Shown here: positions 2,360 to 37,440 of the stretch, piece by piece | Layout of the letters: the number at the start of each line of letters is the position of its first letter | Numbering within the stretch: position 1 is the first letter of the stretch | DNA from: Membranipora membranacea | Lineage: Eukaryota > Bryozoa > Gymnolaemata > Cheilostomatida > Membraniporidae | Direction: 5' to 3' | Assembly: GCA_914767715.1 (NCBI GenBank) | Contig: OU612072.1 | Span: 20,026,001-20,090,000, forward strand | Length of the DNA: 64,000 bases | Translations under genes and position numbers: made by a program | Notes under the pieces: generated by a model | Database searches by the model: none | What the model was told of the DNA's origin: nothing | What the model saw: the letters and a program-made list of their open reading frames with translations, nothing else

Positions 2360-2506
2360 AATTTCAAAGATGGTATCACTGAAGGAGCTGAATGTCAACA
2401 ACAACAATCTGAGTACAGATGATCAGTTGAGCGATACGCTGTCAGGACTTACAAGACTAGAGGAACTGGATATGAGTCATTGTCATCTGGTCGAGTTACC
2501 TTCAGG
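2360..2506 (+). CDS. LRR cassette exon 1
   Basis: A 147-nt internal exon between a TTGCAG acceptor and a GG|GTATGT donor. It begins with one base that completes a codon, has 48 full codons, and ends with two bases (phase 2-2). It can therefore be included, skipped or repeated without changing the frame, and the split codon is always Gly. It encodes two LRRs, starting ISKMVSLKEL and ending HLVELPS. Concave-face residues at codons 11/13/14 are N, N, N and at 37/39/40 are D, S, H. It is one of six near-identical exons that differ mainly at those codons. It is read as an upstream exon of the Roc-COR-caspase gene at 39,539 because phase and LRR register match. The alternative is an exon of a separate or dead gene. 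Confidence 0.8.
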
Positions 2507-3754
2507 GTATGTTCCGTTTGTTTGGTGGATCATGCTATTGAAATAACACATCGCAAACTATATCGCATGTATGTATGTATGTGTGTTGATTTTCAAATTT
2601 TTGGAATTGTGCTCACCCACAAGTTAGAAGTGTCAGAATCAATCTGAAAGGTAAACACTGGCTACCACAATGTAATGCAATCTGAATGCCTTTCAGTTCT
2701 CAATGGAAATTGTTTTCAAGAATCATCTCACATCAATCTCTGGTACATTTTATTAGGAATCAATCTCAATTTGGAAAACTCAATGTTTAGCCCACTGTCA
2801 AGAAAATGGTTATATCTTTTCCAGAGATTGATTGAATGTGTTGAAATTTTTAAAACTATGTCACATTCAAAACATTCATGGAATTTGAAAATGCCGAAAG
2901 ACGGCGACATAATGTGGAGTCGATATACTAGATATCAGAGTGTTTACCATCATAAAGGTAAATTTATCCCCAATGAGTAGGGCAGCTGCCATTCAGTTTT
3001 GTAATATCATAACTGGCTGGTAGTAGAATTGCTGATATTTAATCAATGAAAATTGCCTCCGTTCAGAAGTTATACTATAGTATCGTCCAGCAAAGTAAAA
3101 TTACAAATTATAAATAACCACCCCATCAAACAGCTGTAAGTGTTGTCAGAAAATCAGGCTCAGGCTCAGTGCAAACAAAATCAAGGATTTGTCAAAATAT
3201 ATTTAGACTTCAATGACGACAGAATGGATGGGACAGTAGTATCAAACCTTTCACACCAAGAGATCAAAATTTAATCCCTGGGTTGACTTGATCACATAGT
3301 ATAATCATTAAAGTTTGCAAAGTTTGCATATTTGACAGGTGTAAGATTAACACCTGAGCAGCAAGCATTGAAGTTATTATCCTTTAAAATGTGATCTGGA
3401 GTTAAACTCGGGATGATGTATTCACAGTTTTTACTAAATTACACATGATGACTTCGAAACGTCAAATAATATGGGAGTTGCCCCATCTCTAAACGAAGTT
3501 TGACAACTTCCATGTTCCGAATGAGGTTGAAAGCAATGAAATGATTTCTTTATGAGTCTCAGTGTCATCCTAATAAAAAGAAACTAGGGCCAATGTAAGA
3601 GAGTTATCAAATTGTTGGTATTTGATTATAATTGTACTAAATGACATTGAGGTTGCTGCCATCCTCGTAATACCTGATGGTCGCCTGAAAATTGCTGTTC
3701 TGTTTTCAATTGTCCGCAGTAAATCACTATCTACAATTAATTTGTTTCACTCAT

Positions 3755-6700
3755 CGAAGGACTCAGAAAGTGAAATAAAATAAGGCGGCGGCATGGTCAG
3801 ATTAGTCCAGGACTAGTATGGCGACCACCCGATTAGCTGGAAAACAAAGGCTACTGTCCCGAAGGCGAGCCCAGACACGCAGCCTACACGACAAGAAGCG
3901 ATCCACACCCCCACAGCGAGGACGCCAGCCTCCCACGCAAAGCAGAAGGAGCTGCCCCTTCCTCCCCCAGTAGGTGTGAATTCCACAGGTTATCACCTGT
4001 GGTTAACAGTGACCTCTCCCCTCTACAGTTGTTGGCTCTCTTTGGGGCAAATTTTTCCTTCGACCTAGTGGCTGTAATGGCATGGGCTCGAAGTTCTAAC
4101 TCATTATGAAGACGAATATTATTAAAATGTAACAAATAGCGGTATTTAAAAAGCATTTCAATGGGCATAATTTGATACTAAGAGAAGAAAAAGGTCACAT
4201 GACCACGTGGGCTGATTATAAGTATGACACAGAGAGCTGATTTTTGAAGTAAATAGATGTGATTAAGATTACAATTTGCGGCATGACCATGAAACTCAAT
4301 ACCATAGATTAAATGTGAATAAAAGAATGTGCAACACAAATTGATCATCGTAGGAATATTGAAATATGGTCGTACACTACGCATTAAAAATAGGATGTAG
4401 TTCAATTTTCGACAAACTTCTAAAATATGGGTTTTGAAAATAAAGCTCTCATCCAAGTGAATGTGGAAAAATTTGGTGCTATTTTTTGTCTCTAAAGCCC
4501 AATTTTAATCTGGTACTGTTCGGGATATAAAATTTGCTTATTTTGGGATTTAAAGATTACCTGAATTGTTTTTGTATAGTTTAAAATCAATAAATTACTC
4601 AAGCATCATTGTTCAATTTTAAGAACATTTGATTTTAAAATTTCAGGATCATTGGAAAATATATTTGTGTCGTCGGCAAAGAGAATATATTCAAACATTG
4701 GCGCAGATATTACCAAATCATTGATAAATATTAAAAATAAAATTGGACCTAATACACATCCCTGAGGAACTCGTTTATCGACCTATTTCATTGTACTGGA
4801 ATGATCATTGATTTTGACAAATCATTTTTTGTTTTCTAAATAAGATTCCAGCAAGTCACATGCATCATTTGTAAAATTCTAAAATGGCAAATCTTTAGAT
4901 TAAAATATCATGGAATCCAAACTGGCTGTCAATAAAAATATTAGAATTTTCCAAATAAAATCGAAGTTGGATAGCTAATACTTTTTCTGTAACTTTGGAT
5001 TTTTCAGTTAATATCGATATCGGCTGATAGTTGTTACAGTCAAATTTATCACCTTTTTTATGCAGTGGTCGTTCTCTGGCAATTTTCTGGCTATCTGGAA
5101 ATTCTGATGTTGGAACAATAAGATTGATCATGTGGGTCAAGATTGGGCTGATAGAATTTTGTTTTCTTTAATGATTTTCATTGAAATCCCATCGTACCCA
5201 ACTGCTATTTTTGCAGAGGAATTATTTATGACAGTCTCTGTAATGTCATTTGTAATTTCTAAGAAGTCAAAATTGTTAATTCTGTCGTATTTTGATAGGT
5301 ATGATAACGGGTCAGCTCCACATTCAGGTAATTTAGCTGCCAAGCCAGGACCTACACTCGTAAAAAAATTGTTAAAACATTCATCAATTTCAATTCAGAT
5401 GTGTACCTTTGTCCATTTGTTTCAATACAGCTTGGTGATGAAGACTTGTCTGCTTTTCTGTTTAAAAGCCCATTTCTCATTTTGATTCGATTTTACATTT
5501 TCAAATTCAGTTTTGTAAAAGTTCTATTTTTGCATCTTTGATGGTATTACATGTCAGATTTTTTATCTTAGAATATTTTTGAAGAAGCTTACTGTTGAAA
5601 AGCTCATCCCTAAATTTTTGGGCAAGTTTTTCTCGCTGTTGAATCAATTTGACGATTTTGAGCGTCATCCAAGGCTTTTTAAAAGTAAATTTTTAGCTTA
5701 GCTTTTTAGTTTTAGTTGTGAATGACTCAGCTACTAATTTCTGTAGAGTATTTTTAAAAATTTCAAAGGCGTCATTTGGATTACTGCTATTGAGCACTCC
5801 CTGTCATACTTCTGGGTCATTAACTTTTTTGTAAAGTGTGTTTGGATCAACCTTAGTAATTAAAATTTGGTTAGCTTGGTTTGTCTTCCATGTGTTTGGA
5901 AAAGCAATGGAGCTGATAAAGCCTTGTACCCACCAATGTGCTTTTTTAATCTCAGGAATTTCTTAGATTTTGCACTGGCAATCATTAAAGAATTTGTGGG
6001 TACCACAAAATGTAGCACAACATATCGCACGAATGTAGAATCGATTCTACTTTCGTGCGAAGGTATTTGTAAACGCACGATCTCTGTGTATTTTGTACCC
6101 ACCAATCACAGCAATGCACAAGTGGTCGTGTATGATCGCAGTTATGCAGTTATCACAGTTATGCAGTTGATGGGTACCAGGCCTAACTGGAAAATGGTCA
6201 GCTATCATGTCAGTCTGAACTGTACATGACAAAATTTCATTACTGGTGTTGTTGACCAGAATATGATCTAAAATTCTGTCTTTCGTGCGGCCGCACTGTG
6301 TTGGCGACTCAATAATATTAAAGCAGCCATTCATGCTCATAATTCTCATATAGTGTAGGGTAATGTTTTCAGTTTCATTTGAAGGTTTTAAGTCAAAATT
6401 TTGATCAACTAAAGAGTTGATAGGGAGCGAAGGCAGCAGCGCCTCCCAGTCCACCAGGATATCCGCCGGCCCCACCGAAGGGGTGCGATAGACTGCCAGC
6501 ACAGAGCAGACTGGGCGGCCAGAACAAATCATACGAACCACCATAGCCTCCGCTCCAGACAACCGAACATTTGTCACACTAGCCACAAACTCCTCTCATA
6601 CATACATAGCAATTCACCTCCAGCGCTATGAAATCGAGATCTACAAAACATTTTATAACCATATAGTGAAAACTTCTCTAAAATTTCATTTTCTGAAAAC

Positions 6701-6944
6701 CAAATCTCCGAAATGACAATACATGAACAATGAACATTGAGTTGAGCTAGCAGTACTTCAAACAAAGGCATTTTGTTGATTAAACTACGCATATTGATGT
6801 GTAAAATTGTAAAGGATCGGTGCTAAAATTTTTAATAACAGTATTCACAGATCCTGGGCTAAGATTTTGTACTTGATTAAAAAAGTCAATGATTTGGTAA
6901 TTGGTTGGCTTAGCCATCCTGTTTTGGTGTTGTTACTTGGTGTT
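3755..6944 (-). mobile_element. LINE-1 copy A (CR1/jockey-like non-LTR retrotransposon, broken)
   Basis: Minus-strand element of about 3.2 kb. The 5' half (6050-6920) encodes an APE-type endonuclease with an INMRSL start, a SETW-like motif (SEIW), DRILDHILVN and ADHFP. The 3' half carries RT pieces: GYDGIS near 5190-5230, an intact FADDT catalytic motif near 4670-4690, and the C-terminal region ending in LWNSH near 3970-4020. RT motif A is deleted near 4910. Direct repeats of 16 nt with two mismatches (AATTTGTTTCACTCAT at 3739-3754 and its variant at 6945-6960) look like a target-site duplication. Modules 1, 3 and 5 have the empty site. Confidence 0.8.
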
Positions 6945-7079
6945 AATTTGTTTCACACACTTAGCATAGTCACTGATTACTTAAGTTGATTTCCTCTGGT
7001 AGATAATTTATCATGCTTTATAACTTTTTCATTGGATGCTCCCAAACTTACCCCAGTCCATGACTATGATTAAATTTGT

Positions 7080-8015
7080 ACCTAGATTGAGTTTTATGCA
7101 GTTTGCTGTCTTGAGAAGTTTTCCCTTTTCCCTTCACTTGATAGCCGGCTAGCACGCCCCATCTCGTACCCAGGAGAGAATCCCAGGTAGAGAGGTTCCA
7201 AGGTGAAACAATATTGACCCTGGCTGATAGTCTTTGTGTTTGGAGGGGCAAGCAACCCTGGGATTGGTCGGATTTGCGCTTCCTTGCATTTATCTGGAAC
7301 GTAGATCGCATCAAACTTAATTTGTTATTGAGAGGCAAGCAAACATTTTCTTCACCCTCCACTTAGATCCATGTCCGGAAGTCTTCAGATGGTGTTGACT
7401 TCTCACCATCCAACTTATACATGATATGGGATTTCTCCCAGATTACGAGGCTCCAAATGCGTATCAGACTCCAGTATTTGAACAGATGGTAGAGGCAACA
7501 TCCTGAGATTTTGAATTTCTAAACACCTCTCTGCTATAGCGTATTATTCAATGAGTCATAAAGGACAGCGATCTATGGGCTGGTTGCTACAATTTAGTAT
7601 AGGTTGAAATACTGTACTCAATGGTTAAAGTGGCAAACAGACAACAATTGTAGATAGCTGTGTGAGTTCAGCCTGTCACTCCGAGCGCCCACTCAGCTCC
7701 CAAACACAAAGACCATATGTCAGTGTCAATATTGTTTCACCTTGACAAGCTTACTGATGAGGTTATAATAAAATAAATGAGATCCAAATTGACAGAGGTA
7801 ATAGAGCCATCACAGTTTGCTTACAAGACACACATTTGGACAGTCGACGCCTCGATCAATGAGCTTGATGAATTCACATCAGAGCATGACAACCATAATG
7901 TAAAAGTGGCGCATTGGACTTTTCAGAGGCATGCAATCGACTACAACCTTCAACATCTTATTATCAATGTCGAATTCAGATATCACCACTCTCTGTTATG
8001 AACAAATTTCAATGT
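7080..8015. mobile_element. Inverted pair of LINE-2 RT fragments (module 2)
   Basis: A minus fragment (about 7080-7420) and a plus fragment (about 7690-8010). They meet head to head around about 300 nt of unrelated sequence. The shared core, about 45 nt around KHKD-SILFHL, occurs once in each orientation and forms an inverted repeat. Confidence 0.65.
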
Positions 8016-8033
8016 TTTGTTGGTACCTTGCAG

Positions 8034-8180
8034 CATTTCAAAGATGGTATCACTGAAGGAGCTGACAGTCAGAGTCAACAATCTGAGTACAGATGATCAG
8101 TTGAGTGATACGCTATCAGGACTTACAAGACTAGAGGAACTGGATATGTCTAATTGTCATCTGGTCAAGTTACCTTCAGG
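8034..8180 (+). CDS. LRR cassette exon 2
   Basis: 147-nt phase 2-2 exon, acceptor TTGCAG|C, donor GG|GTATGT. It carries the same two LRRs as exon 1 with a different exposed face: T, R, V at codons 11/13/14 and D, S, N at 37/39/40. Codon 11 has gone from AAT to ACA and codon 14 from AAC to GTC, so the changes are multi-base. Other differences from exon 1 are the first base, two silent changes (24, 27) and Glu to Lys at 45. The frame is fully open. Confidence 0.8.
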
Positions 8181-10495: not shown

Positions 10496-10514
10496 TTTTG
10501 TTGGTACCTTGCAG

Positions 10515-10661
10515 CATTTCAATGGTGGTATCACTGAAGGAGCTGAATGTCCATTTCAACAATCTGAGTACAGATGATCAGTTGAGTGATACGCTATCAG
10601 GACTTACAAGACTAGAGAAACTGGATATGAGTCATTGTCATCTGGTCGAGTTACCTTCAGG
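10515..10661 (+). CDS. LRR cassette exon 3
   Basis: 147-nt phase 2-2 exon with intact splice sites and open frame. The exposed residues are N, H, F in the first LRR and D, S, H in the second. It differs from the others at codons 3-4, where Lys-Met becomes Met-Val through two base changes. The second LRR is identical in its variable codons to exon 1, so the two LRRs vary independently. Confidence 0.8.
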
Positions 10662-11880: not shown

Positions 11881-14800
11881 AATTTTTCTTTTTTGTTTCT
11901 GCAACAATTTATTGTATTTAAAATCAAAGGACTCAGAAAGTGAAATAAAATTAGGCAACGGCATGGTCAGGTTAGTCCAGGACTAGTATGGCGACCACCC
12001 GATTAGCTGGAAAACAAAGGCTACTGCCCCGAGGGCGAGCCCAGACATGCAGCCTACACGACAAGAAGCGATCCACACCCCCACAGCGAGGACGCCAGCC
12101 TCCCATGCAAAGCAGAAGGAGCTGCCCCCTCCTCTCCCAAAAGGGTGTGAATTCCACAGGTTAACACCTGTGGTTAACAGTGACCTCTCCCCTCTACAGT
12201 TGTTGGCTCTCTCTGGAGCAAATTTTTCCTTCGACCTAGTGGCTGTAATGGCAGGGGCTCGAATTTCTAACACCCCATGAAGGCGAATATTATTAAAATG
12301 TAACAAATAGCGGTATTTAAAAAGCATTTCAATGGGCATAATTTGATACTAAGAGAAGAAAGAGGTCACATGACCACGTGGGCGGATTTTGAGTATGACA
12401 CGGAGAGCTGACTTTTGAAGTAAATAGATGTGATTAAGATTACAATTTGCGGCATGACCATGAAACTCTCTACCATAGATTAAATGTGGAAAAAAGAATG
12501 TGCAACACAAATTGATCATCGTATAAATATTGAAATATGGTCGTACACTACGCATTAAAAATAGGATGTAGTTCAATTTCCGACAAACTTCTAAAATATG
12601 GGTTTTAAAAAAAATGCTCTCATCCAGGTGAATGCCGAGAAATTTGGTGCTATTTTTTGTCTCTAAAGCCTGATTACCAAGTTTAATTTGGTACTGTTCG
12701 GGGTCTAAAATTTGCTTATTTTGGGATTTAAAGATTACCTGAATTGTTTTGTATAGTTTAAAATCAATATATTACTCAAGCATCATTGTTCAATTTTATG
12801 AACAATTGAATTTAAAATTTCAGGATCATTTGAAAATATATTTGTGTCGTGGGCAAAGAGAATATATTTAAACATTGGCGCAGATATTACCAAATCATTG
12901 ATTACTATTAAAAATACAATTCGACCTAATACACATCCCTGAGGAACTCCTATATCGACGTTTTTCATTGTACTGGAATGATCGTTGATTTTGACAAATT
13001 ATTTTCTGTTTTCTAAATAAAATTTCAACAAGTCACATGCATCATTTGTAGAATTATAAAAAGGCAATTAATTTTTTTGATTAACATATCATGGTTGATG
13101 GTATCAAAAGACTTGCTGAAGTCTAAAAATATTCCTTGTGTAATTTTACTGTTATTGAAACTGTCGTACAGGTGTTCCATTAGTCTAGATAAAGCAGAAG
13201 TTGTGTTCCGTTTTTCATGGAATCCAAACTGGCTGTCAATAAAAATATTAGAATTTTCCAAATAAAATCGAAGTTGGATAGCTTAAACTTTTTCTGCAGC
13301 TTTGGATATTGCAGTTGATATCAATATCGGCCGATAGTTGTTACAGTCAAATTTATCACCTTTTTTTATGCAGTGGTCGTTCTCTGGCAATTTTTTTGCT
13401 ATCTGGAAATTCTGATGATGGAACAATAAGATTGATCATGTGGGTCAAGATTGGGCTGATAGCATTTTTATTTGCTTTAATGGTTTTTATGGAAATCCCA
13501 TCGTACCCAACTGCTATTCTTGCAGAGGAATTATTTATGACAGTCTCTGTAATGTCGTTTGTAATTTCTAAGATGTCAAAATTGTTAATTCTGTCGTATT
13601 TTGATAGGTATGATAACGGGTCAGCTCCACATTCAGGTAATTTAGCTGCCAAGCCAGGACCTATACTCGTAAAAAATTGTTAAAACATTCAGCAATTTCA
13701 ATTTCAGATGTCTACCTTTGTCCATTTGTTTCAATACAACTTGGTGATGAAGACTTGTCTGCTTTTCTGTTTAAAAGCCCATTTCTCATTTTGATTCGAT
13801 TTTACATTTTCAAATTCAGTTTTGTAAAAATTCTATCTTGATGGTATTACATGTCAGATTTTTTATCTTAGAATATTTTTGAAGAAGTTTACTGTTGAAA
13901 GGCTCATCCCTAAATTTTTGGGCAAGTTTTCTCGCTGTTGAATCAATTTGACGATTTTGAGCGTCATCCAAGGCTTTTTAAAAGTATTTTTTGCTTAGGT
14001 TTTTAGGTTTAGTTATGAATGACTCAGCTACGAATTTCTGTAGAGTATTTTTAAAAATTTCAAAGGCGTCATTTGGATTACTGCTATTGAGCACTCCCTG
14101 TCATACTTCAGGGTCATTAACTTTTTTGTAAAGTGTGTTTGGATCAAGCTTAGTAATTAAAATTTGGTTAACTTGGTTTGGCTTCCGTGTGTTTGGAGAA
14201 GCAATGGAGCTAATAAAGCCTTGTACCCACCAATGTGCTTTTTTAATCTCAGGAATTTCTAAGATTTTGCACTGGCAATCATTAAAGAATTTGTGGGTAC
14301 CACAAAATGCAGCACAACATATCGCACAACATATCGCACGAAAGTAGAATCAATTCTATTTTCGTACGAAGGTATTTGTAAACGCACGATCTCTGTGTAT
14401 TTTGTACCCACAAATCACAGCAATGCACAAGTGGTCGTGCATGATCGCAGATGAGTTGCTGGGACAGTTATGCAGTTGATGGGTACCAGGCCTAACTGTA
14501 AAATGGTCAGCTATCATTTCAGTCTTAACTGTACATGACAAAATTTCATTACTGGTGTTATTGACCAGAATATGATCTAAAATTCTGTCTTTCGTGCGGC
14601 CGCTCCGTGTTGGCGACTCAATAATATTAAAGAAGCCATTCATGCTCATAATTCTCATATAGTCTAGGGTAAAGTTTTCAGTTTCATTTGAAAGATTTAC
14701 GTCAAAATTTAGATCACCAAAAACTATAGAGTTGATAGAGAGCGAAGGCAGCAGCGCCTCCCAGTCCACTAGGATTTCCGCCGGCCCCACCGAAGGGGTG

Positions 14801-15260
14801 CGATAACCTGCCAGCACAGAGCAGACTGGGCGGCCAGAACAAATCATACGAACCACCATAGCCTCCGCTCCAGACAACCGAACATCCGTCACACTAGCCT
14901 CAAACTCCTCTGATACATACATAGCAATTCCACCGCCAGCGCCATGAAATCGAGATCTGCAAAACATTTTATAGCCATATAGTGAAAACTTCTCTAAAAA
15001 TTCCTTTTGTGAAAACCAAGTCTCTGAAATGACATATAAGAAGAATGAACATTGAGTTGAGCTAGCAGTGCTTCAAACAAAGGCATTGTGTTGATTAGAC
15101 TACGCATATTGATGTGTAAAATTGTAAAGGATCTGGTGCTAAAATTGTTAAAAACGGTATTCGCAGATCCTTGGCTAAGATTTTGAACATCGTTAAAAAA
15201 GTCAATGATTTGGTGATCCGTTGGCTTAGCCATCCTGTTTTGGTGTTGTTACTTGGTGCT
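11881..15260 (-). mobile_element. LINE-1 copy B (CR1/jockey-like non-LTR retrotransposon, nearly full)
   Basis: The most complete LINE-1 copy, about 3.4 kb, minus strand. The endonuclease part (14,356-15,233) shows INMRSL, GDLNFDV, DRILDHILVN and ADHF. RT pieces follow: GYDGIS (near 13,500), FLDFSKSFDTINH (motif A, near 13,100), VPQGCVLG (near 12,950) and the C-terminal LWNSHP (near 12,150). The catalytic FADD is mutated to FAHD near 12,855 and frameshifts split the ORF, so it is dead. Its 3' end has about 40 nt that copy A lacks and copy C shares. The 5' flank is the same AATTTGTTTCACTCAT seen at empty sites. Confidence 0.8.
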
Positions 15261-15404
15261 AATTTGTTTCACTCATTTAGCATAGTCACTGATTACTTAA
15301 GTTGATTTCCTCTGGTAGATAATTTATCATGCTTTATGACTTTTTCATTGGATGCTCCCAAACTTACCCCAGTCCATGACTATGATTAAATTTGTAACTA
15401 GATT

Positions 15405-16655
15405 GAGTTTTATGCAGTTTGCCCGTCTTGAGAAGTTTTGCCTTTTCCCTTCACTTGATAGCTTGCCCGATCTCCTACCCAGGAGAGAATCCCAGGTAGA
15501 GAGGTTAAAAGGTGAAACTATATTGACACTAACTGATAGTCTTTGTGTTTGGTGGGGCAAGCAACCCTATGGATTGGTCGGATTTGGGCTCTCTTGCATT
15601 TATCTGGAACGTAGATCACCTCAAACTTAATATGTTATTGAGAGACAAGCAAACATCTTCTTCACTGAGACCTATGGCAGAACTTCCCCCTACAATTGCT
15701 TCAGTGAATACAGCCATAGAATTTAGCGCAACAAACATGTTGTAATTGTGGTGTATTTATATATATTATATAAAAAAAAAATCCAATCCAATCATAGCCG
15801 GCTAGCTCGCCCGATCTCCTACCCAGGAGAGAATCCCAGTTAGAGAGGTTCCAAGGTGAAACAATATTGACCCTGGCTGATAGTCTTTGTGTTTGGTGGG
15901 GCAAGCAACCCTATGGATTGGTCGGATTTGGGCTCTCTTGCATTTAACTGGGATTTCCGATGTAGATTGCATCAAATTCAATATGTTATTGAGAGGCAAG
16001 CAAACATCTTCTTCACCCTCCACTGAGATCCATGTCTGGAAGTCAGCAGATGATGTGGACTTCTCAACATCCAACTTACACATGAGATGGGATTTCTCCG
16101 AGATTATGAGGCTCCAAATGCATATCAGAATCAATTATTTGAACAGATGGTAGAGGCAACGTCCTGAGATTTTGAGTTTCTAAACTCCTCTCTGCTATAG
16201 CGTATTAATCAACGAGTCATAAACGACAGCGATCTGTGGGCTGGTTGCTACAGTTTAGTAAAGGTTTAAATACTGTACTCAATGGTTAAACTGGCAAACA
16301 GAGAACAATTGTAGATAGCTGTGTGAGTTCAGCCTGTCACTCCGAGCGCCCACTCAGCTCCAAGATAGCCCTCCCAAACACAAAGACCATTGGTCAGTGT
16401 CAATATTGTTTCACCTTGACAAGCTTACTGAGGAGGTTATGATGAAATAAATGAGATCCAAATTGACAGAGGTAATAAAGCCATCACAGTTTGCTTACAA
16501 GACGCACATTCGGACAGTCGACGCCTCGATCAAACTGCTTGATGATTTCACATCAGAGCCTGACAACCGTAATGTAAAAGTGGTGCATTGGACTTTTCAG
16601 AGGAATGCAATTGACTGCAACCTCTAATGTCAAAATCAGATTTCACCACTCTCTG
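15405..16655. mobile_element. LINE-2 RT fragments, two minus and one plus (module 4)
   Basis: Two minus fragments (about 15,405-15,665 and 15,795-16,100) and one plus fragment (about 16,350-16,650). The doubling of the minus fragment is unique to this module. Confidence 0.6.
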
Positions 16656-16693
16656 TTATGAACAAATTTCAATGTTTTGTTTGTACCTTGCAG

Positions 16694-16840
16694 GATTTCA
16701 AAGATGGTAGCGCTGAAGGAGCTGGATGTCACTTTCAACAATCTGAGTACAGATGATCAGTTGAATGATACGCTATCAGGACTTACAAGACTAGAGAAAC
16801 TGGATATGATTTTTTGTCATCTGGTTGAGTTACCTTCAGG
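16694..16840 (+). CDS. LRR cassette exon 4
   Basis: 147-nt phase 2-2 exon, first base G (still Gly after the GG donor). It is the most divergent cassette: D, T, F in the first LRR and D, I, F in the second, giving a much more hydrophobic concave surface. Codon 40 is TTT against CAT, AAT, GAT or AGG elsewhere. Codon 6 has changed TCA to GCG (Ser to Ala), and codon 24 is Asn. Splice sites and frame are intact. Confidence 0.8.
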
Positions 16841-19828: not shown

Positions 19829-20068
19829 TGGTCAAAACACACTTGGCGGTTGTAACCTCAGAGGATTGCAAAACGCCACCATTGTTAACATATATGATGA
19901 CAGCAGCATCAGCTGATCCTCAGAGGTTTGGTCAGCGGTTGCAACCTCAGAGTGCAGCGCGGATTGCATGACGCCACATAACAAACATATAAGCTCAGCT
20001 GATCCTCAGAGGATTGATGTTTATATAAAAACTCATCGAGGATCAGCTCTGTCATTGTGTTTAGACCA
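19829..20068. mobile_element. MITE copy 2
   Basis: A 240-bp second copy, in intron 4, with the same 15-nt terminal inverted repeats. TTA lies on both sides, which fits a 3-bp target duplication of the PIF/Harbinger type. It ends only 31 nt before exon 5, so the exon's polypyrimidine tract lies directly against it. Confidence 0.75.
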
Positions 20069-20099
20069 TTACATCTCTTGCTTTTTTCCTTCCTCACAG

Positions 20100-21913
20100 T
20101 CGGCAATGGCTGCAGTACACCCTCAAATCGAAGTTTGGCAAAGAGATAAAGTTTCATGCTGCCTCATCCTCCACTGAGAGCGCACTTGTCACGTCGAGAA
20201 ATGCTAATCTCAATGACCTTGTATACAATGACGATTCTATAAATGTCGGTCATGTCACAACAGAAGATAGTGATACTTGTGACGATGAAACGTTAAGTAT
20301 GAGAGCAAGTGCGGCGCAATCTAACACCAACAATCACTATAAACTATTCCACGCAGCTTTGAAGATTAGGAGCGACATTCACAAGAAGAATGCTGAGGCT
20401 CATATCCCATGGCCACCTTCAGCCAGTGACTTAGATCTTGAAAAATGCAAAAACATGATCCCCACGTCACTATACAACTTTATCGCTATTTTAGTGGGAG
20501 CTGTAGAAGAACCAACCGATATGTCTGCTAAATATATATTATTGCTGACCACCAGTTGTGCAAGAGAGTCACGTCTATTTCCCAAGATCTTATGTATTTA
20601 GAAAGTAAGGGTGCAAATCCAACACCAAAATCCCTAGCTCTTGGTCTAACCTTACGTCACATGACTGGTTCTAAATCTGTGTCGCGTCTTCTCAGTGGTT
20701 TTGCACATGCCTGTAGCTATGACACTACCGTAAGGCTTGAAACTATGCTAGCCTTGAAACAAGTCCATGACAGTGACACGCTCCCACCCGGCTTCTCTAA
20801 AAAGACCTTCACGGTTCTAGTGTATGACAATATCGACTTCTCAGAAGAAACGCTCACTGGCCATGGCACAACTCACCACACCAACGGTCTAATGATTCAG
20901 CTCAAAAGTCAAGATTGTCCAGCGGCGCCTGATACAGAAGATGGTTGTAGACTAGTAGGTCTACCTAAATCAACGAGAACTTTTAATATGCCTGCTGAAG
21001 AAATCTTGCCCTACTACCAAGCAGCAAGAAAAGGTCCGCAGAACATTGCACCATAAACTGCAGAGCAAAATTATGATACTGGTGACTTTGCATCTTCCAA
21101 AGCAGCTGACTTGTCTTTTATCATGAGGAAAGTTGTTAACACGTCAGAAGACATGGCACTGCCTGGCCGGACGGCTCATAACAATAAAATTTCAGATCCC
21201 CTACCACTATCCAAGATTCACTACCTACCTGTCATTGAGGCTTCACCAACAGATCTGGCAACAGTGAAGCATATCTTGGAAGATGTTGTGAAATACTGCA
21301 ACAAAGTCGAATGCGAGTCAGTCATGCTCATTATGGATCAAGCCATTTATAGCAAAGCTCAGCAGATTCGTTGGGCTGTGGAGCCTGATTCGCTATACTA
21401 CCGTCAAGTTGTCCCGCGATTGGGCGAGTTTCATACGATCATGTGTTTTTTGAGCATAATTGGAAAGCGCTTCTCACTGTCTGGACTTGATGACATACTC
21501 ATAGAAAGTGAGTTGGTTGCAGCTGGCTCAATGAATGGAGTATTAAGTGGCAAGATGTACAACAGAAGCGTGAGAGCGCATAAGGTCCTCTTTGAAGCTT
21601 TATCACGACTCCAAATGATCAGCTTTGTCGAATCACTGGACGACGAACACAGAGCCTCAGTTTCTCAGTTTGCTCAATCTGAGGATCATAGCATAGTAAT
21701 GGATGAAGATCTGATTACACGATACAATAACTATATTGAAGAAAGAAGCTCCAACAGACCAACCTTCGCTTTCTGGAAATCATATCAGGATATGGTATTG
21801 ATGTTGTTGGCTTTCATCCGTGCTACATGAACAAGCGACTGGAACCTTCACCTAGCTGCTCTCCTTCAAATGTTGCCGTGGATGTTTGCATATGATCGTA
21901 CACATTATTGTAG
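20100..21913 (+). pseudogene. PIN-CXC gene exon 5 (largest middle exon), with three lesions
   Basis: The acceptor TTCCTCACAG is strong. The frame reads through KLFHAALKIRSDIHKKNAE, shifts by one near 20,530-20,560, and resumes at SISQDLMYLESKG and LGLTLRHMTGSKS. It then meets TAA at 21,054 in frame, continues with LPGRTAHNNKISDPL, and meets TGA at 21,828 just before the conserved MLPWMFAYDRTHY. The TGA sits where the family has a basic residue, so a CGA to TGA change is plausible. Sequence on both sides of each lesion keeps family-like reading, so decay is recent. Confidence 0.75.
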
Positions 21914-21954
21914 GTGAGTTAAAAATACCTGCTTAATTTTTTTTGGTATACTAC

Positions 21955-22090
21955 ACATTATTTCTATATACTATATACTACACATTATATATATAATTAT
22001 ATACTATACTATATTCTATATATATAATATACTTAAGTATTTAATATATTATATATATATAATATATATATATATATATTCTATATACTA
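21955..22090. repeat. AT microsatellite
   Basis: A run of TATA/ATAT with few interruptions inside an intron of the PIN-CXC gene. Nothing else seen in it. Confidence 0.85.
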
Positions 22091-23390
22091 CACATTGTTT
22101 TACTCGTTATTGCAGAATGTTTATACACTTTTTTTATATAAAGTTTGGAAATTCCCTTTCTCAGATACGCTCCAGCTTACTGGCTAGAGATGATCAATAG
22201 GCCAAATACACACCCTAGGCTTCACAAAGAACTGATGGCAAATAGAGGCTCTTGGACTGTTCAGCGTCAATCTGAGACAGGATTTAGCTCACTGGCAGCG
22301 GATCAAACCATAGAAGTCACCATCAATCGTGAAACTAAAACATCTGGAGGGATAAGAGGAATAACTCTTACTCAAGGTAAATACAAACTTGGAAATTAGA
22401 ATAATACACCAATATGATTGTTTGGCAAGCTTATTTCAATGTATGTTTGAGTTTTCGGCAGCTTAGCAGCAGACAGATCAATCGGTTATTACGCTTAATC
22501 ATCCACATTTATCTTCACTTAGGTGCGGTACAGCGCTTGGTCTTGTCACAACCGGCAAAGGCAGAAATATCCGCTGTTTGCAATCAGCTGGCTGGATTGT
22601 CAGATGGGTTTCGTGTCCACAAAGAAACAGACAAAACCAGGTATACATAGCGGTCGTCACAGGCAAAATAGGTCTATCTGTATTTTTTTATATTATATAA
22701 TAATACGTTTTTTCTGAGTCAACAATGGTTTTCAATTATTCATTTTATTATTTCAAAAAAACTCAACTGCTAGTCTATTAAGCTTTTTTTCAGGCTTTCA
22801 TTCAATACCAAACTTGTGTGGATCAGTAAAGGCACTTGCGCGTAACGCGCAAAAAACGAAAATACCCCCGAAGTTACAAGCGAGAATAGTCTATCTGCAT
22901 GCAAACAGACCTTTTTGCCTTGAGTCCAACACAGCAGCTGGCCAGAATTGACAAACTAAAATGGTCTATGTGTCATTTTATTGCAGCAACACACCACCTC
23001 GTCCATTTATGCCAACCTCATCAAACTTTTATCAACTCATAACCATCCCGCACAGGGGAGACAATCCCAAAGGTGCAATTACCAGATCTATTTACTTGTT
23101 CTGAGTAAAACCACAGTCAGAAATACTACACAATGTTTGAAGTAAGGGTGTCATTTTCCATTTTATTTTTCTATCAAATGGAAATTTAAACATAACAAAA
23201 AAACAAAAAACAAAACAAAGAAAATCAGCTAACCAAGCAAAATTCAATAGAAAACAACAATACTGTAAAAAATAATCATTATCAATAAAAATGCAACTCT
23301 TAGTGATGCTAGTACACCGGCTACTGTACACCATGAACTTTGGTTCTGTCAATTCCGTATACTCTTCCAGAACCAGGGGCTAGGATGACA

Positions 23391-24401
23391 TCAGATGTCA
23401 TCCTCCTGAGTCTGCTCTGCCACAGCAGGATACAGGCGCTCCTGGTCCCTGACAAGCCCCTCAAAGAACTGCCTGGCTACACGATGATTCGCAAGCTTAT
23501 CAACGAGCTCCAGGCAGTCTTTGAGCTTTAGCCTTGACACACGCTGGGGCTTATCATAGGCAGCATTAATCAGTTGAAGGTTGGCTGGTGCCCCAACCCT
23601 CCTCCAGCTGACCTGTCTCAGATCCGCCTCGTAATTCTTACTGACAGCCATAGAAATGGCTGTCCCAGCCTTTACGAGTCGGATCGTATGCCACTGCGAT
23701 ATACCGATCAGGGAGGTTTCACGGATTGCCCTTTCAGAAAGCTCTCTGAAATTTAGGAAATCTGTGAAATCCATCACCTTCACGGTATATCTAGGCGGCT
23801 TGACTTTCGCTGTCTGGAAGAGCGTGTAGTAGCTGTCTGGAGTGCCAAGCTCAACACCCCTCCCTGCTCTTTCAATGAGACCATGCATGCCATCGGCCTC
23901 CATCATGCTATGGCCTGTCTCAAAGTACTTGATGGCAATGCTGATCTCACCATCAAGAGCAGGTCGAGTGGAGATGGCAGCTAGCAGAGCAGCTACAACC
24001 ATCTGGTTCTTGTTTTGTCCCACGCAACCGTCTGACCACAGAATGATGTTTTTTTCTGTGATCAGGGACGGTACTGTGGTTAGGAAGTGGAAGAGATACG
24101 AGGCAATTTCATTGCCTCCCCTCATGCCTTCCACTTCCGTCCAGGTGTAACAGTAACCATGTGTACTGGCATCACTTAGAGTTGCATGAAAACAAAGGTT
24201 AAAAAGAGTTAATTTTTGTTTATAAAAGGCAGAGCCCGCTGCCAAGCGTGGCACCAGCATGATCTGCTGGAGATCAAAGCTTACGTTGATGGTATTCGGC
24301 TTGCTTCGATCTCCAGCTTTCTCAGCTCTTTTCTGTCTTTATGGATCTGATGGGCTGCCGCATCACCCCCTACCCGCTCGTATTGGATACATCGGTCACA
24401 G
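23391..24401 (-). CDS. DUF7869-like terminal exon (core domain)
   Basis: About 290 codons are open from 24,260 down to the stop at 23,391. It holds TEVEGMRGGNEIASYL, then ILWSDGCVGQNKNQ, then FETGHSMMEADGMHG. The Asp of SDG, the Asp of EADGMHG and the His residues resemble a retained catalytic set of a nuclease or transposase fold. That is inference from spacing only. Confidence 0.65.
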
Positions 24402-25976
24402 CTAAAACAAAAACAAGGTTGGATTATGCAACTTTGCTCAAGAGCATTGATAACTGAATAGCATCCAATCTATTGAAGCGCACGATACATAATCTATCTC
24501 AGTTTACCACAAATTTACAGTGGAATGGACTACTTACAGATCTGACTTGGGTATAAAGAACCCGATGTTGGTGTTTGTGTTGAACCACTCTCTATACCAG
24601 CTGATTGATGGAGGAATGGCTTGGCAGTGGCTGCGGAAATCGTCGTATAGAATACGGATATTGAGTCCATGCTCTAGATAAAACTTTTTCGACTTTGCTC
24701 GACAGTAGTGAGCTGGTATCCTGGGGAAATAAAAACAGAACCGATGGTAAGCACAAGCTTCACATAAATCATGAACAAGCTACAGCGACTGAACTGATGT
24801 ACCAGCTTAATCCACCAAAGTTAATTGCGTCTAACTTTCAATGGGTAGACTTAATTACCTGTTAAAAGTCCTGAGACGTTCCTTGGCAAGCCGTATGGTG
24901 ATCTCAGAAACTTTGTTTGCTGGTGTGTGAGGGGTTGGTGGCGTCCGGATATTATTGACGCACACCTTCTTAGTTCTTGCCGCCTGAAAGAGATAAGTGA
25001 AGAGTTACAAACGCTGTTAGTGGAGAAGCTAATCAACAGCAGCTCTGACTTTATTCAAAGACACAGTTACCCATAATTCATAGCTCATTTCCAACAGAAA
25101 CTATCGAAGGCACAAACCTTGTGATACGACACATCGAGTGTACAGTTGTAAAACTCCTTACAAACACGTCTCTGCGTGTTGTCTGCCATGGTAATAAAAT
25201 ACTGGTTGGAGACAGACTTTCTCCTAGATGTTACACGTCCAGGAGCACTCTGAAAGAGAACAGTCACAACATTAAGAGGCAGTTGATTTGGAGTAAAAGC
25301 GGTACATACAAACAAGTTTGAGAAAACAAAAGCAAACATACTGGCAGAGATAACATTGTAACAGTAGGAACGTATGAAACATGGTGGTACTTACCGATCT
25401 TACTGACTGGGCGTCGTAGGCCCAGTGGCCTTCCCGTCTTCCTTGTCCCCAGTAGGCATCTAATGCCTGCTGCCTTTCAGGTTCTGTGATGGTGTGACAT
25501 TTAAAAACCGGGCTGAGATGACCCTCTGCAGGGCAAGGTCTCTGGCGTAACTGCCTTGGCACTGACTCCTGAGCTGATGAGCTGATGTATTTGGCTTGGC
25601 CAGAATTCACCAACCGTCTCTTTTCTGCCCGCTTAGTGGCACTGGGGTTTGCCCTGATGATACGCGCTCCCTCACCAAACTCACCCCGCTTTGCTAAGTC
25701 TACAATGTAGATTGGAGTAGTTTAGGATAGATCAATTAGGACAGGGTTACTAGATAGCCACAACTTTGGATGACAGAATGATAGGTTGATGTCAATAACT
25801 TGTAAACTTCAACTGACGTAATAAATGTGTGTCTGTAACTTACCAGTTTGGTCTATTCTCGTGAGCGAGATAGAAAGAGTTGGGAGAGAGGAGGCTGAGC
25901 TGCTTGATGTCCCTGCAGGCTGGCAAAAAAATCTGTGACTGATGGTGCAACGTCCACAACTGCAGTTTGGAATCAT
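23391..25976 (-). pseudogene. DUF7869-like transposon-type protein gene, six exons
   Basis: Exons (minus, 5' to 3'): 25,976-25,844; 25,699-25,395; 25,249-25,118; 24,983-24,859; 24,720-24,538; 24,401-23,391. All phases join. The start MIPNCSCGRC is Cys-rich, as is a later CDRC, suggesting zinc binding. The family signature follows: PAHYCRAKSKKFYL, FFIPKSDLCDRC, VSFDLQQ, and the core NEIASYLFHF with WSDGCVGQNKNQ. I recognise this as the protein type called DUF7869 in insects and cnidarians. It is usually multi-copy and transposon-linked, with no known activity. One base appears lost near 24,275 (frame breaks between RIPST and VSFDLQQ), so the copy is probably inactive. One donor is weak (GTTTGT at 25,117). 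It lies antisense inside an intron of another element's gene. Confidence 0.7.
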
Positions 25977-26682
25977 TGTAAATTTAATAGAGGTCTTTCC
26001 TGTGTGATGGCTGTAAAATAAATGGCAGATCGTAACAGGTGCTCTCTCAATAGTGGGCGGAGCTTATTTCGAGAAATCTCATTGGACAAAAAAGTGGTCA
26101 CATGCATGCGGAGAGGGAACTGAATGATCATTACATTCTGATTGGGTAATAGGCGATGATGTCATCTTACGCCAAAGGTTATAATTTTTTAGCATCTTCT
26201 GACTTAGCATGTTTAAGCTCGGCATTCACATGAAAAATACACTGATGCAATGTCCAATATTGGTACTAATCATGAAAATGAGAGAAACTACTAACCTTTC
26301 TTCTTGATGAGTCTGTTTAAATGACTTTTGAAGAGCTTTGTGCAAATAAAGTGACAATGTGTTTTACCTCTCGAGAAAGCAACAAATAGACCATTTTTGC
26401 CTGAACAATGGCGTGGCATGGTGCAAATAGACCGTTTTGTAAGGGTTGTATCTTTTGAACCGCTAGGCGTAGGGGGATAATTCCCGCAGATTTGGACTCG
26501 CCATGGTCTATTACGTCTGTTTTAATTTACATTGCAATATCCGTTGCAAATACATATAGACCTTTTTTGCCACTCTTTTTGACACTCTACAAATGCATAC
26601 ATGTCTGTTTATGTAGTGCTTATATAATTGTACTATATCTGGTGCCCTACTTTTTTTTCAATTTTTAAATTCTAAATTTTAG

Positions 26683-28501
26683 AATCGAGAAAGACGAAGC
26701 ATGTGTTCAGAAAGTGATGGGACAAATCCAGAGCTTCATCAATCCATGGGAGTGCGAATCAGAAAGTCTCTTGTCTCTAAGCTCAGGAGCTATTGCCAGC
26801 AATGAGGTACTCGCAGACATGTCCGGTGCACATGGAATGGGTGAGACCAAAGCTTTAGAATATATAAACAAGAGACTTACCGGAGACAGCGAAAGCGTTT
26901 TTGACACCATTAAAGCTTTAAGGCTCAAGACATTTCAAACCAAACAAGCCACAAAATCTAAGGCCAAGTCAAATCTCCAGTCTGCGAAAGGTGAGCGATC
27001 TTTGTTTGCACGCATGCTCTTGGTTGCCAAACAAAGAGATTTGGATATGAAAGAAGTTCTATCTTACTCGCTCTCTCCCATACCTGCAGCCCTTTGTACT
27101 GCAGACATGTCCACCCACAGCAAAAATGACAAGGCTGAAATACTTCATGTCTTGGAGGAGAATATAATGTCCCTAAATCAGCAGCAGGTTGACGAAATCT
27201 TCCAGTCAGGTCTGGTTGTGGATGCATTGGCAATATTACAATCCATAGTCGTAGCACAGTTACCAAATACATTTGGTGAGCTGGCGGAATTAGTGCTGCA
27301 AACTGCAACTCGCCTAGCAATCCAATTTAAGTCGGTGCGCATCGACTTTGTTGGTGACCAATATTTGGAGGTCAGTATCAAGAATGTTGAACGGAAACGT
27401 CGCACTAAGAACGCTGTTCAGCAAATGGAAGTAAATGGGCCAGACCAGCCTATCCCAAAACAATGGAAAAAATTCATGGCCTCTGGAGCAAATAAACAGA
27501 GTTTGCAGAGGTTCATAGCTGATCATTGGAGTACTGCAAAGATAGATCTGAAATTAGATCTCTTTGTAGGCATTGACAGATACTGCCGGAAGCTTTCTTG
27601 GGGAGGAGCTCATCAAATACCAGAGGTCAGCCTTGTACCTGAGCTGGCCAGTGATCATGAGGAGGCAGATACTCGGATCATGTTACACTGCCTACACGCA
27701 GCTAATGAATTACCAAATGTTGTCATTCATTCGCCAGATACTGATGTGGCTGTTATCGCATTGGGAAACCTAGACCCACATGTCGGCCGCTTTTTGTTCT
27801 CTACTGACACCGGAAATAAAAGGAGGCTTATTGATCTCAGTGAGCTACATCTAAAACTGGGCGCAGAGCAAGCCAAGGCTTTGATTGGGTTGCACGCATT
27901 CACCGGGTGCGACAGCATATCATCATTTGTTGGTAAAGGCAAGCGGACCTGCTATAAACAATTCAAGCCAGAATTTTATTCTGCATTCGCACAGCTTGGT
28001 GAGAGCTTTACTTCCAATGAACTGGTGGCAAGTGATCTTGAGAAGTATGTTTGCCGTCTCTACAACATCTCATCTGTTGAGTCTGTGAATGCAGCTCGAC
28101 ATCAGCTGTTCTGTACAACCACTCCCGAAGAGAGGAGCCTGCCACCAAACAGGGATGCACTTACACAGCACCTTGCTCGCTGTGCTTACCAGGCTGGAAT
28201 TTGGCGTCTCGCAGGTACTGCCATAATGAATGCACCTTCACCTGTCGATCATGGGCGGGAGATGTGCGACGATATTCTTTCTGTCATTTGGCTGAAGGGA
28301 CCACCGGCACCGCCCACAGTAATGAAGCTGTACCGTTGCAGTTGCAAAGCTACCAACTGCAAAAGCCGTGGATGTTCATGTGTGAAGGCCGGTTTAAAGT
28401 GTACGCAATTGTGTGGATGCCTTCAATGCGACAATGGCAAGGATGACACTCAGCAAGATGAGTACGACCAAAGTACCGACGATGAAGACCTCGACCTTTA
28501 A
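26683..28501 (+). CDS. PIN-CXC gene terminal exon (nuclease-like block and CXC tail)
   Basis: An open exon of about 605 codons without lesions. It joins exon 7 across the 4-kb intron: AG plus A gives Arg, then IEKDEACVQKVMGQIQSF. The middle shows DHEEADTRIMLH, HSPDTDVAVIAL and LHAFTGCDSISSFVGKGK. Spacing and acidic residues match PIN/XPG-type nucleases (EAD, DTD, GCD followed by a GKGK turn). The last 60 residues contain YRCSCKATNCKSRGCSC and CTQLCGCLQC, a tesmin/TSO1-like CXC metal-binding motif. An acidic tail ends it. It likely bound DNA and may have cut it. Intact while exon 5 is broken. Confidence 0.7.
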
Positions 28502-30699: not shown

Positions 30700-31635
30700 A
30701 TTGAGTTTTATGCAGTTTGCCTGTCTTGAGAAGTTTTCCCTTTTCTCTTCACTTGATAGCCGGGTAGCTCTCCCGATCTCCTACCCAGGAGAGAATCCCA
30801 GGTAGAGAGGTTCCAAAGTGAAACAATATTGACACTAGCTGATAGTCTTTGTGTTTGGTGGGGCAAGCAACCCTATGGATTGGTCGGATTTGGGCTCGCT
30901 TGAATTTAACTGGAATTTCCGTTATGGATTGCATCAAATTCAATAGTCATTGAGAGGCAAGCGAACATCTTCTTCACCCTCCACTGAGATCCATGTCTGG
31001 AAGTCTTCAGATGATGTTAAATTCTCAGCATCCAACTTGTACATAAGATGGGATTTCTCCGAGATTATGAGGCTCCAAATGCATATCAGACTCCAGTATT
31101 TGAACAGATGGTAGATGCAACGTCCTGAGATTTTGAGATTCTAAATTCCTCTCTGCGATAGCGTATTATTCAATGAGTCATAAACAGAAGCGATTTGTGG
31201 GCTTGTTGCTACAGCTTAGTATAGGTTTAACTACTGTACTCAATGGTTAAACTGGCAAACAGACAACAATTGTAGATAGCTGTGTGAGTTCAGCCTGTCA
31301 CTCCGAGCGCTCACTCAGCTCCAAGATAGCCCTCCCAAACACAAAGACCATTGGTCAGTGTCAATATTGTTTCAGCTTGACAAGCTTACTGAGGAGGTTA
31401 TAATAAAATAAATGAGATCCAAATTGACTGAGGTAATAGAGCCATCGCAGTTTGCTTACAAGACGCACATTGGGACAGTCAACGCGTCGATCAAACAGCT
31501 TGATGATTTCACATCAGAGCTTGACAACCATAATGTAAAAGTGGCTTTCCAGAGGCATGCAATCGACTGCAACCTTCAACATCTTATTATCAATGTCGAA
31601 TTCAGATATCACCACTCTCTGTTAGGAACAAATTT
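30700..31635. mobile_element. Inverted pair of LINE-2 RT fragments (module 5)
   Basis: A minus fragment (about 30,700-31,020) and a plus fragment (about 31,320-31,630). Small deletions happen to open the frame from the plus RT fragment across the acceptor into the LRR exon. This looks accidental. Confidence 0.6.
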
Positions 31636-31659
31636 CAATGTTTTGTTGGTACCTTGCAG

Positions 31660-31806
31660 CATTTCAAAGATGGTATCACTGAAGGAGCTGACAGTCAGAG
31701 ACAACAATCTGAGTACAGATGATCAGTTGAGTGATACGCTATCAGGACTTACAAGACTAGAGAAACTGGAAATGAGTGATTGTCATCTGGTCGAGTGACC
31801 TTCAGG
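31660..31806 (+). pseudogene. LRR cassette exon 5, with nonsense codon
   Basis: 147-nt phase 2-2 exon with intact splice sites. The exposed residues are T, R, D and E, S, D, the only cassette with an acidic set on both LRRs. Codon 46 is TGA where the others have TTA (Leu), so including it would end the protein. It must be skipped, edited, or be a dead cassette. Confidence 0.8.
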
Positions 31807-32715
31807 GTATGTTCAGTTTGTTTGTTGGATTATGCTATTGAAATAACACATCGAAAACTATATCGCGTGTATGTATGTATGTGTTTTGATTTTCAAATTT
31901 TTGGAACTGTGCTCACCCACAAGTGAGAAGTGTCAGAATCCATCCGAAAGGTAAACACTGGCTACCACAATGTAATGCAATCTGAATGCCTTTCAGTTCT
32001 CAATGGAAATTGTTTTCAAGAACCCTCTCACATCAATCTCTGTTACATTTTATTAGGAATCTATATCAATTTGGCAAACTCAATGTTAAGCCCACTGTAA
32101 GGAAAATGGTTACATCACTTCCAGAGATCGATGGAATGTGCTGAAATTTTAAAAACTATACTACCTTCAAAACATTCATGGAATTTGAAAATGCCGAAAA
32201 ACGGCACAATAATGTGGAGTCGATATACTAGATATCAGAGTGTTTACCATCATAAAGGTAAATTTATCCCCAATGAGTAGGGCAGCTGCCATTCAGTTTT
32301 GTAATATCATAACTGGCTGGCAGTAGAATTGCTGATATCAAATCAATTGCCTCCATTCAGAAGCTATACGTCAGCAAAGTAAAATTACAAATTATAAATT
32401 ACAACCCCATCAAAAAGTTGTAAATGACGTCAGAAAATCAGGCTCAGGCGATACTAACATGAGTATCTTCGCAGTGCAAACAAAATCAAGGATTTCTCAA
32501 AATATATTTAGACTTCGGTGACGACAGAATGGACGGAACAGTAGTATCAAACCTTTCACACAAAGAGATCAAAATTTAATCCCTGGGTTGACTTGATCAC
32601 ATAGTATAATCGTCAAAGTTTGCAAAGTTTGACAGGTGTAAGATTAACACCTGAGCAGCAAGCATTGAAATCATTATCCTTTAAAATGTGATCTGGAGTT
32701 TAACTGGGATGATGT

Positions 32716-33075
32716 ATTCCCGATTTTAATTCATTCAAAAAAAGCTGCACATATAATTATGGTTGTGCTGTTTGCCTTCCTCCTGGAATCCAAAATGATC
32801 GCCGTTGACCTAAGCCACTGATGGAATTGAACTCAAGAACTGTAGAAACATTGTCCATTGTCATACAGTTTGTCAATACATTTCCGACCTATATCAATAT
32901 GGATCGATGATATTTTGACCGCAGAAGGAATCAAAAACTTAGTATCAATGTAATAATGTATTATACAAGATGTCTGCTAAGCAAGAATATCGCAATTTGT
33001 GGTGGAAGTTGAAAACATTAGATGATAACTCAACATGTAACCGGCATGGTAGTTTGTGGAAGATATCAGCCCTAA
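32716..33075. other. Non-module insert between modules 5 and 6
   Basis: About 360 nt without similarity to the module. Its last 50 nt match 17,055-17,105, the point where module 4 breaks off. No gene seen. Confidence 0.55.
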
Positions 33076-33690
33076 CTCGCCCGATCTCCTACCCAGGTTC
33101 CAAGGTGTAACAATATTGACACTAGCTGATAGTCTTTCTGTTTGGTGGGGCAAGCAACTCTATGGATTGGTCGGATTTGGGCTCTCTTGCATTTAACTGG
33201 AATTTCCATTGTGGATTGCATCAAATTCAATAGTCATTGAGAGGCAAGCAAACATCTTCTTCACCCTCCACTGAGATCCATGTCTGGAAGTCTTCAGATT
33301 ATGTTGACTTCTCAGCATCCAACTTATACATGAGATGGGATTTCTCCCAGATTATGAGGCTCCAAATGCATATCAGACTCCAGTATTTAAACAGATGGTA
33401 GATGCAACGTCCTGAGATTTTGAGATTCAAAATTCCTCTCTGCTATAGCGTATTATTCAATGAGTCATAAACAGAAGCGATTTGTGGGCTTGTTGCTACA
33501 GCTTAGTATAGGTTTAAATACTGTACTCAATGGTTAAATTGGCAAACAGACAGCAATTGTAGATAGCTGTGTGAGTTCAGCCTGTCACTCCAAGCGCTCA
33601 CTCAGCTCCAAGATAGCCCTCCTAAACAGAAAGACCATTGGCCAGTGTCAATATTGTTTCACCTTGACAAGCTTACTAATGAGGTTATAA
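33076..33690. mobile_element. LINE-2 RT fragments, truncated (module 6)
   Basis: A minus fragment (about 33,076-33,320) and only the first 90 nt of the plus fragment (33,605-33,690), ending at the deletion. Confidence 0.55.
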
Positions 33691-33721
33691 TAAATTTCAA
33701 TGTTTTGTTGGTACCTTGCAG

Positions 33722-33868
33722 CATTTCAAAGATGGTATCACTGAAGGAGCTGAATGTCAGAAATAACAATCTGAGTACAGATGATCAGTTGAGTGATACG
33801 CTATCAGGACTTACAAGACTAGAGAAACTGGATATGAGTAGGTGTCATCTGGTCGAGTTACCTTCAGG
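33722..33868 (+). CDS. LRR cassette exon 6 (closest to the effector exons)
   Basis: 147-nt phase 2-2 exon, frame and splice sites intact. The exposed residues are N, R, N and D, S, R. The last codon of the second set is AGG against CAT in exons 1 and 3, a change at all three positions. It lies 5.7 kb upstream of the Roc-COR exon, with only LINE-1 C and non-coding sequence between. Its GG donor joins the T of the exon at 39,539 to make Gly and continue the LRR pattern. Confidence 0.8.
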
Positions 33869-37431: not shown

Positions 37432-37440
37432 GTATATTTA

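Follow-up and report, generated by a model that had tools for sequence, protein, structure and literature searches.

Array of two-LRR exons and downstream domains

The DNA analysed here (the window) is a stretch of 64,000 nucleotides from the bryozoan Membranipora membranacea (contig OU612072.1, positions 20,026,001 to 20,090,000). Between positions 2360 and 33868 it carries six 147-nt exons, each encoding two leucine-rich repeats (LRRs). They are followed by an open frame with predicted Roc GTPase and COR domains of the ROCO family and by a putative caspase in three pieces (Table 1). The window apparently holds the 3′ two thirds of an LRR-ROCO-caspase gene. Each of the six exons is preceded by CAG, followed by GTATG, and splits a codon 2+1 at both ends (phase 2), so that joining or skipping any number of them keeps the frame. 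A sequence-only reading of the window had described these six LRR-pair exons with the right places, length and number of repeats, and it gave the correct residues for codons 11/13/14 and 37/39/40 in all six copies, but it overlooked the TGA of the fifth copy. The six exons it counted are present, but the array is larger. Upstream of the window we found one further close exon at about -2528 (window coordinates), a divergent exon with 55% identity at about -6231 and, near -9450, a weaker exon, and the array leads into the Roc-COR and caspase sequences. It is built of nested duplications whose units measure about 2.3-2.5 kb and 8.2 kb, and the larger alignments are 88-95% alike. The idea of six separate genes, one for each exon, was dropped: the 124 kb around the window contain one Roc and one caspase only, which match the exons in orientation and phase.

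Table 1. Exons and domains located in the window (window coordinates)
Feature	Position	Strand	Evidence
LRR-pair exon 1 (NNN/DSH), phase 2-2	2360..2506	+	sequence
LRR-pair exon 2 (TRV/DSN)	8034..8180	+	sequence
LRR-pair exon 3 (NHF/DSH)	10515..10661	+	sequence
LRR-pair exon 4 (DTF/DIF)	16694..16840	+	sequence
LRR-pair exon 5 (TRD/ESD), in-frame TGA at codon 46	31660..31806	+	sequence
LRR-pair exon 6 (NRN/DSR)	33722..33868	+	sequence
Open frame with last LRRs, Roc GTPase and predicted COR; phase-2 acceptor at 5′ end (41486 is the end of the open frame, not necessarily the 3′ end of the exon)	39539..41486	+	Pfam, fold matches
Putative caspase, first part (profile 1-41)	42148..42291	+	PF00656 17.9 bits, under cut-off 21.4
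Putative caspase, central part (profile 60-129), HG and EACSGG	42487..42753	+	PF00656 32.7 bits, cut-off 21.4
Putative caspase, last part (profile 162-207)	45406..45540	+	PF00656 14.8 bits, E = 0.023, under cut-off

The last LRRs of the gene share the Roc frame, and the link from the array to Roc rests on phase and order. The Roc domain was found at 29.7 bits (PF08477, cut-off 27), and a COR-B match lies right after it at 19 bits, under the cut-off of 27. Structure prediction for this frame gave a low-confidence model (pLDDT 55.4). In a Foldseek search with this low-confidence model, the first 22 of the 50 matches listed were LRRK1, LRRK2 or a bacterial Roco tandem, and the alignments to the two LRRK proteins and to bacterial Roc-COR extend over 500-690 columns. 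We therefore count a predicted COR domain directly behind Roc as present. The frame has five homologues in the protein collection, the best of which covers 93% of the query at 40% identity. The Pfam scan of this one frame returned Roc and other GTPase/ATPase families and no NACHT or NB-ARC domain within it. Weak LRR matches in the PDB include lamprey VLR (variable lymphocyte receptor) and plant NLR chains.

The three caspase pieces are in the correct order. The best PDB matches of the central piece are caspase-3-type chains (best E = 1.6e-5), and its HG and EACSGG motifs would supply the expected catalytic His and Cys. We assigned the three pieces to a caspase domain on this basis. To our knowledge, true caspases are animal enzymes.

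The six exons could also be alternative cassettes: as in Dscam, each transcript would include one or a few of them, and one gene would give rise to many receptors. We consider this unlikely. Phase 2-2 exons can be skipped without a frame shift, and the stop-bearing copy would need skipping. LRR exons of brown-algal ROCO genes are reported to be alternatively spliced in the available part of one study (PMC11378527). However, simple duplication predicts phase 2-2 exons equally well.

Variation and selection at the exposed codons

In the six window copies, 15 of 18 nucleotide columns are variable at codons 11, 13, 14, 37, 39 and 40, compared with 11 of 126 columns at all other codons (Fisher p = 5.7e-11). 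The mean pairwise difference is 0.44 at these named codons versus 0.03 elsewhere in the exon; any two window copies differ at 4-11 of the 18 nt. When the close upstream exon was included (seven copies), none of 20000 random six-codon sets was as different as the named six (0/20000). Pairwise differences in the donor-side introns of five alignable copies are 5-13 per 200 nt. The donor-side flank of copy 33722 differs from the other five at 33-43 positions in 184-190 nt and diverges further out. The site-specific variation thus exceeds that of the flanking introns. Scaffold and introns had both been described as nearly unchanged; for the introns, similar is the better word. The named codons were assigned to the concave, exposed face by the LRR motif because the structure model of the two-LRR cassette is poor (pLDDT 52.4).

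The genome, 18 contigs totalling 339 Mb, was searched in six frames with one exon as the query. Of the 150 matches scored among 499 candidates, 143 are found on contig C8 at 19.89-24.54 Mb (a region of 4.65 Mb), where they fall into 21 clusters (45-kb gap as divider) with a single strand within each cluster. The other seven are on contigs C2, C7 and C10. A close set of 46 matches (E <= 2.1e-17) consists of 7 array exons and 39 further exons, the latter taken with short flanks; 44 of the 46 are distinct and only one carries a stop codon. An LRR_8 search elsewhere in the genome (20 stretches) gave weak matches only, and these exons were dropped as candidate relatives. Several exon pairs are very similar (L035/L036, L037/L038, L070/L071, L074/L087, L086/L091). 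Recent duplication or haplotypes left uncollapsed in the assembly may explain these pairs, which makes the copy number uncertain. The nearly identical exons L074/L087 and L086/L091 lie at C8:24.4161-24.4337 and 24.5308-24.5391 Mb, in two clusters 0.1 Mb apart, due to either recent duplication or an uncollapsed haplotype.

Ranked by pairwise difference among the 44 distinct exons, the codons are 14, 40, 13, 39, 11 and 37, followed by 42, 9, 44, 35, 26 and 16. The named codons occupy ranks 1-6 of 48, which 0 of 100000 random six-codon sets reach. In the 37 distinct out-of-window exons, a set independent of the window copies, they take ranks 1-4, 6 and 7, with codon 42 fifth, and the mean difference is 0.368 at the six codons and 0.056 elsewhere. 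The variation described at the six named codons is confirmed, but it is not limited to them. A second codon group (9 and 35, 16 and 42, 44) was picked after the ranking was seen. These are positions 3, 10 and 12 of LxxLxLxxN and by the motif are exposed too. At the six named codons of the 44 distinct exons, A or G makes up 0.82 of position 1 and 0.90 of position 2, and T makes up 0.73 of position 3 versus 0.24 on the scaffold. The commonest exposed codons are AAT, AGT, GAT and GGT.

A second array (L077-L085) of nine exons with a period of about 1.26 kb is found at C8:24.4196-24.4298 Mb. It was drawn from 20 more distant exons, the other eleven of which are not in the column count. Variation occurs at all six named codons in this array, with 11 of 18 columns variable there and 9 of 126 at the other codons (p = 3.6e-7). 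Uniform variation along the exon, named beforehand as the outcome that would speak against the pattern, is absent in the 39 further exons and in the nine-exon array. It was concluded that the observation is real and firmer than the window by itself could show. A decaying, retro-duplicated region without function, in which the pattern is due to chance or assembly error, is very improbable. One stop codon, introns full of LINE (long interspersed nuclear element) pieces and very similar copies elsewhere, possibly uncollapsed haplotypes, would fit such decay, but a stop is found in only one of the 46 close exons, and in each of two separate subfamilies of exons the variation tracks the LRR motif.

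The codon model was run on 43 sequences (the 44 distinct exons minus the stop copy). The six named codons pooled gave alpha 0.91, beta 4.88 and omega 5.36 (likelihood-ratio test statistic, LRT, 13.9; p = 2e-4). The second codon group pooled gave omega 3.27 (p = 0.0085), and the remaining 37 codons gave alpha 0.39, beta 0.32 and omega 0.82 (p = 0.46). With a single synonymous rate for the exon, beta was 4.93 at the six codons versus 0.57 elsewhere (LRT 164). Six placebo codon sets showed beta values of 0.39, 0.42, 1.29, 1.30, 1.63 and 2.15; the four higher sets (1.29-2.15) include some exposed codons. Positive selection limited to the six codons had been expected from more copies: it was detected there, but it extends beyond them. 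Concave-face positive selection, a feature of LRR-ROCO genes of the brown-algal type, is therefore present here, with the face assigned by motif.

Mutation targeted to the exposed codons could in principle replace selection, and we regard this as very unlikely. The preference for A/G at positions 1-2 and T at position 3 (mostly AAT, AGT, GAT, GGT) is in its favor, but selection on a binding face would favor such residues too, and many other codons are among the changes. The synonymous rate at the six codons is not significantly different from that of the rest (p = 0.25) in a comparison of low power.

Probable exchange among exons, and nearby mobile sequences

The scaffold difference is 0.051 between clusters (939 pairs) and 0.049 within a cluster (96 pairs). 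At the six codons the corresponding values are 0.389 and 0.369 for the same numbers of pairs. The 44 exons show 28 motif variants of LRR1 and 30 of LRR2 in 41 combinations. Among these exons, no association was found between the LRR1 and LRR2 motif halves (Mantel r = 0.08, 339/2000) or, likewise, between the scaffold halves (Mantel r = 0.14, 311/2000). The LRR2 motifs track the adjoining intron (Mantel r = 0.36, 2/2000). The motif combinations together with the unassociated halves suggest that the exons are mosaics, and exchange among exons is likely. Strong selection could also cause the loss of association between the halves.

Concerted evolution would account for the pattern in another way: the exposed-codon differences would be old, and gene conversion would homogenise the introns and all other exon positions, as in fungal NLR repeats. 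This is possible, and somewhat doubtful. The likeness across clusters equals the likeness of neighbors, the exposed codons differ at two or three positions at once, and the scaffold omega is near 1 and not strongly purifying. However, conversion must repeatedly spare three codons within 12 nt unless selection maintains them. Since conversion needs selection to spare the exposed codons, it adds to diversifying selection and does not replace it.

Minus-strand LINE pieces are located at window positions 4908-7355, 13215-15665 and 35836-37433 and were duplicated along with the LRR exon units. An endonuclease domain of the LINE type is found at 14356-15072 (PF03372, E = 2.3e-7). An apparent mobile element with several open frames lies between exons 4 and 5 (20065-28501). 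Its frames weakly match a DDE-like domain (E = 0.05); DUF7869 (E = 0.003) stays under its cut-off, and a CXC/TCR domain falls slightly short of its own. A reverse-transcriptase fragment is present at 49748-50362 (PF00078, E = 1e-13). A long open frame on the minus strand at 61986-63284 encodes threonine/proline-rich tandem repeats and is mucin-like; a Pfam scan of this frame gave no match.

Candidate receptor and known systems

We think it probable that the locus encodes an intracellular LRR-ROCO-caspase recognition receptor, and that duplication and exchange of its LRR exons in the germ line, together with positive selection, make these exons diverse. A microbial or self/non-self ligand would bind to the concave side of the LRR solenoid, the Roc-COR switch would oligomerise, and the caspase, once activated, would fire a cell-death or inflammatory response. 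Such a receptor may serve in immunity or in allorecognition. The repertoire would arise in the germ line, where exons and LINE-bearing introns duplicate by unequal crossing over. Exons would then disperse and be exchanged across the roughly 21 clusters, which span 4.65 Mb of a single chromosome. The ligand-facing codons would diversify under selection while the exon frame stays alike. The diversified recognition repertoire proposed in the sequence-only reading is supported by the codon ranking, the omega values and the second array; recognition itself would be the presumed role.

A number of observations weigh against this explanation. The in-frame TGA at codon 46 of copy 31660-31806 means either that the exon is skipped, that the array is partly dead or that the sequence is in error. 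The joining of exons, Roc-COR and caspase in one mRNA is presumed from phase and order. Copy counts are lower bounds (150 of 499 candidate matches were scored), and the 21 clusters on C8 were defined by LRR exon matches alone. Codon by codon, p < 0.05 was reached only at codons 9, 14 and 35 of 48 (uncorrected). Raw counts over the six codons of seven exons gave pN 0.46 and pS 0.34, with few synonymous sites. Tree-based tests presuppose a tree, which exchange between copies would violate. A scaffold-codon tree gave implausible values (alpha 8, beta 37, LRT 766) and that run was discarded. Recombination gave no significant signal in a PHI-like test, where 323 of 2000 permutations reached a value as low.

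A more far-reaching proposal is that the 4.65-Mb region is a library of interchangeable two-LRR exons for ROCO-caspase receptors. Motifs would be recombined within exons and between loci that lie megabases from each other. Each individual would then gain an anticipatory repertoire through splicing or somatic rearrangement, an animal counterpart of the brown-algal proposal. We consider this quite improbable. The germ-line receptor described above is of interest in several respects. If the gene model is true, a caspase effector in the same gene would make a one-protein alarm, and the ROCO family, best known from LRRK2, would gain a candidate job in recognition. Since dozens of the exons are nearly identical and their matching introns can serve as a neutral reference, the locus provides a test case for the diversification of repeat receptors. 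Searches of open-licence papers turned up no description of an LRR-ROCO-caspase gene with shuffled LRR exons in an animal, which is not proof of absence.

In lamprey VLRs and plant NLRs, variation is located on the concave LRR face. VLRs are somatically assembled and anchored outside the cell, and NLRs carry a NACHT or NB-ARC switch. The window exons share the concave-face variation, and the parallel drawn to these receptors in the sequence-only reading stands as an analogy, but the gene is predicted to be of the ROCO type. In the fungal NLRs het-d and het-e the repeats are WD40 repeats within one coding sequence, and a few codons vary. The accessible text on these Podospora genes describes high internal repeat conservation in a family involved in regulated cell death (PMC12222747). 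They share near-identical repeats with the present locus, for which a cell-death role would be a candidate one; unlike it, they are NLRs and not ROCO genes.

Tetrahymena has LRR genes with arrays of 90-bp exons and phase-2 introns, and a LINE-like element is suspected in their spread (PMC6564038, in the part available). Equal-length LRR exon arrays, phase-2 introns and the LINE-like association are common to both systems. The ciliate differs in exon length (90 bp) and in having thousands of genes, and the available part of that paper does not mention ROCO. Placozoan ROCO proteins carry varied domains including CARD, according to portions of two papers (PMC4104024, PMC11378527).

The closest known system, as far as the available part of PMC11378527 describes it, is that of the exon-shuffled LRR-ROCO genes of brown algae (Ectocarpus, Saccharina and others; an earlier study is Zambounis et al. 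2012, cited via PMC11378527). In these genes each LRR is encoded by a 72-bp phase-2 exon, the exons form arrays and are alternatively spliced, and positive selection acts on four concave-face residues. LRR-ROC-COR is the only ROCO architecture in brown algae, and the proteins are proposed to be immune receptors; somatic recombination of the loci is unreported in that part of the paper. The present locus shares the arrays of phase-2 LRR exons, the positive selection on the concave face, a predicted LRR-Roc-COR order and a proposed role as an immune receptor. It differs in that an exon is 147 nt with two LRRs instead of 72 bp with one LRR (the phase is the same), and in its putative downstream caspase, its animal host and its location in one 4.65-Mb chromosome region. 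If the gene model is true, ROCO proteins with shuffled phase-2 LRR exons and a binding face under diversifying selection have arisen independently in brown algae and in an animal.

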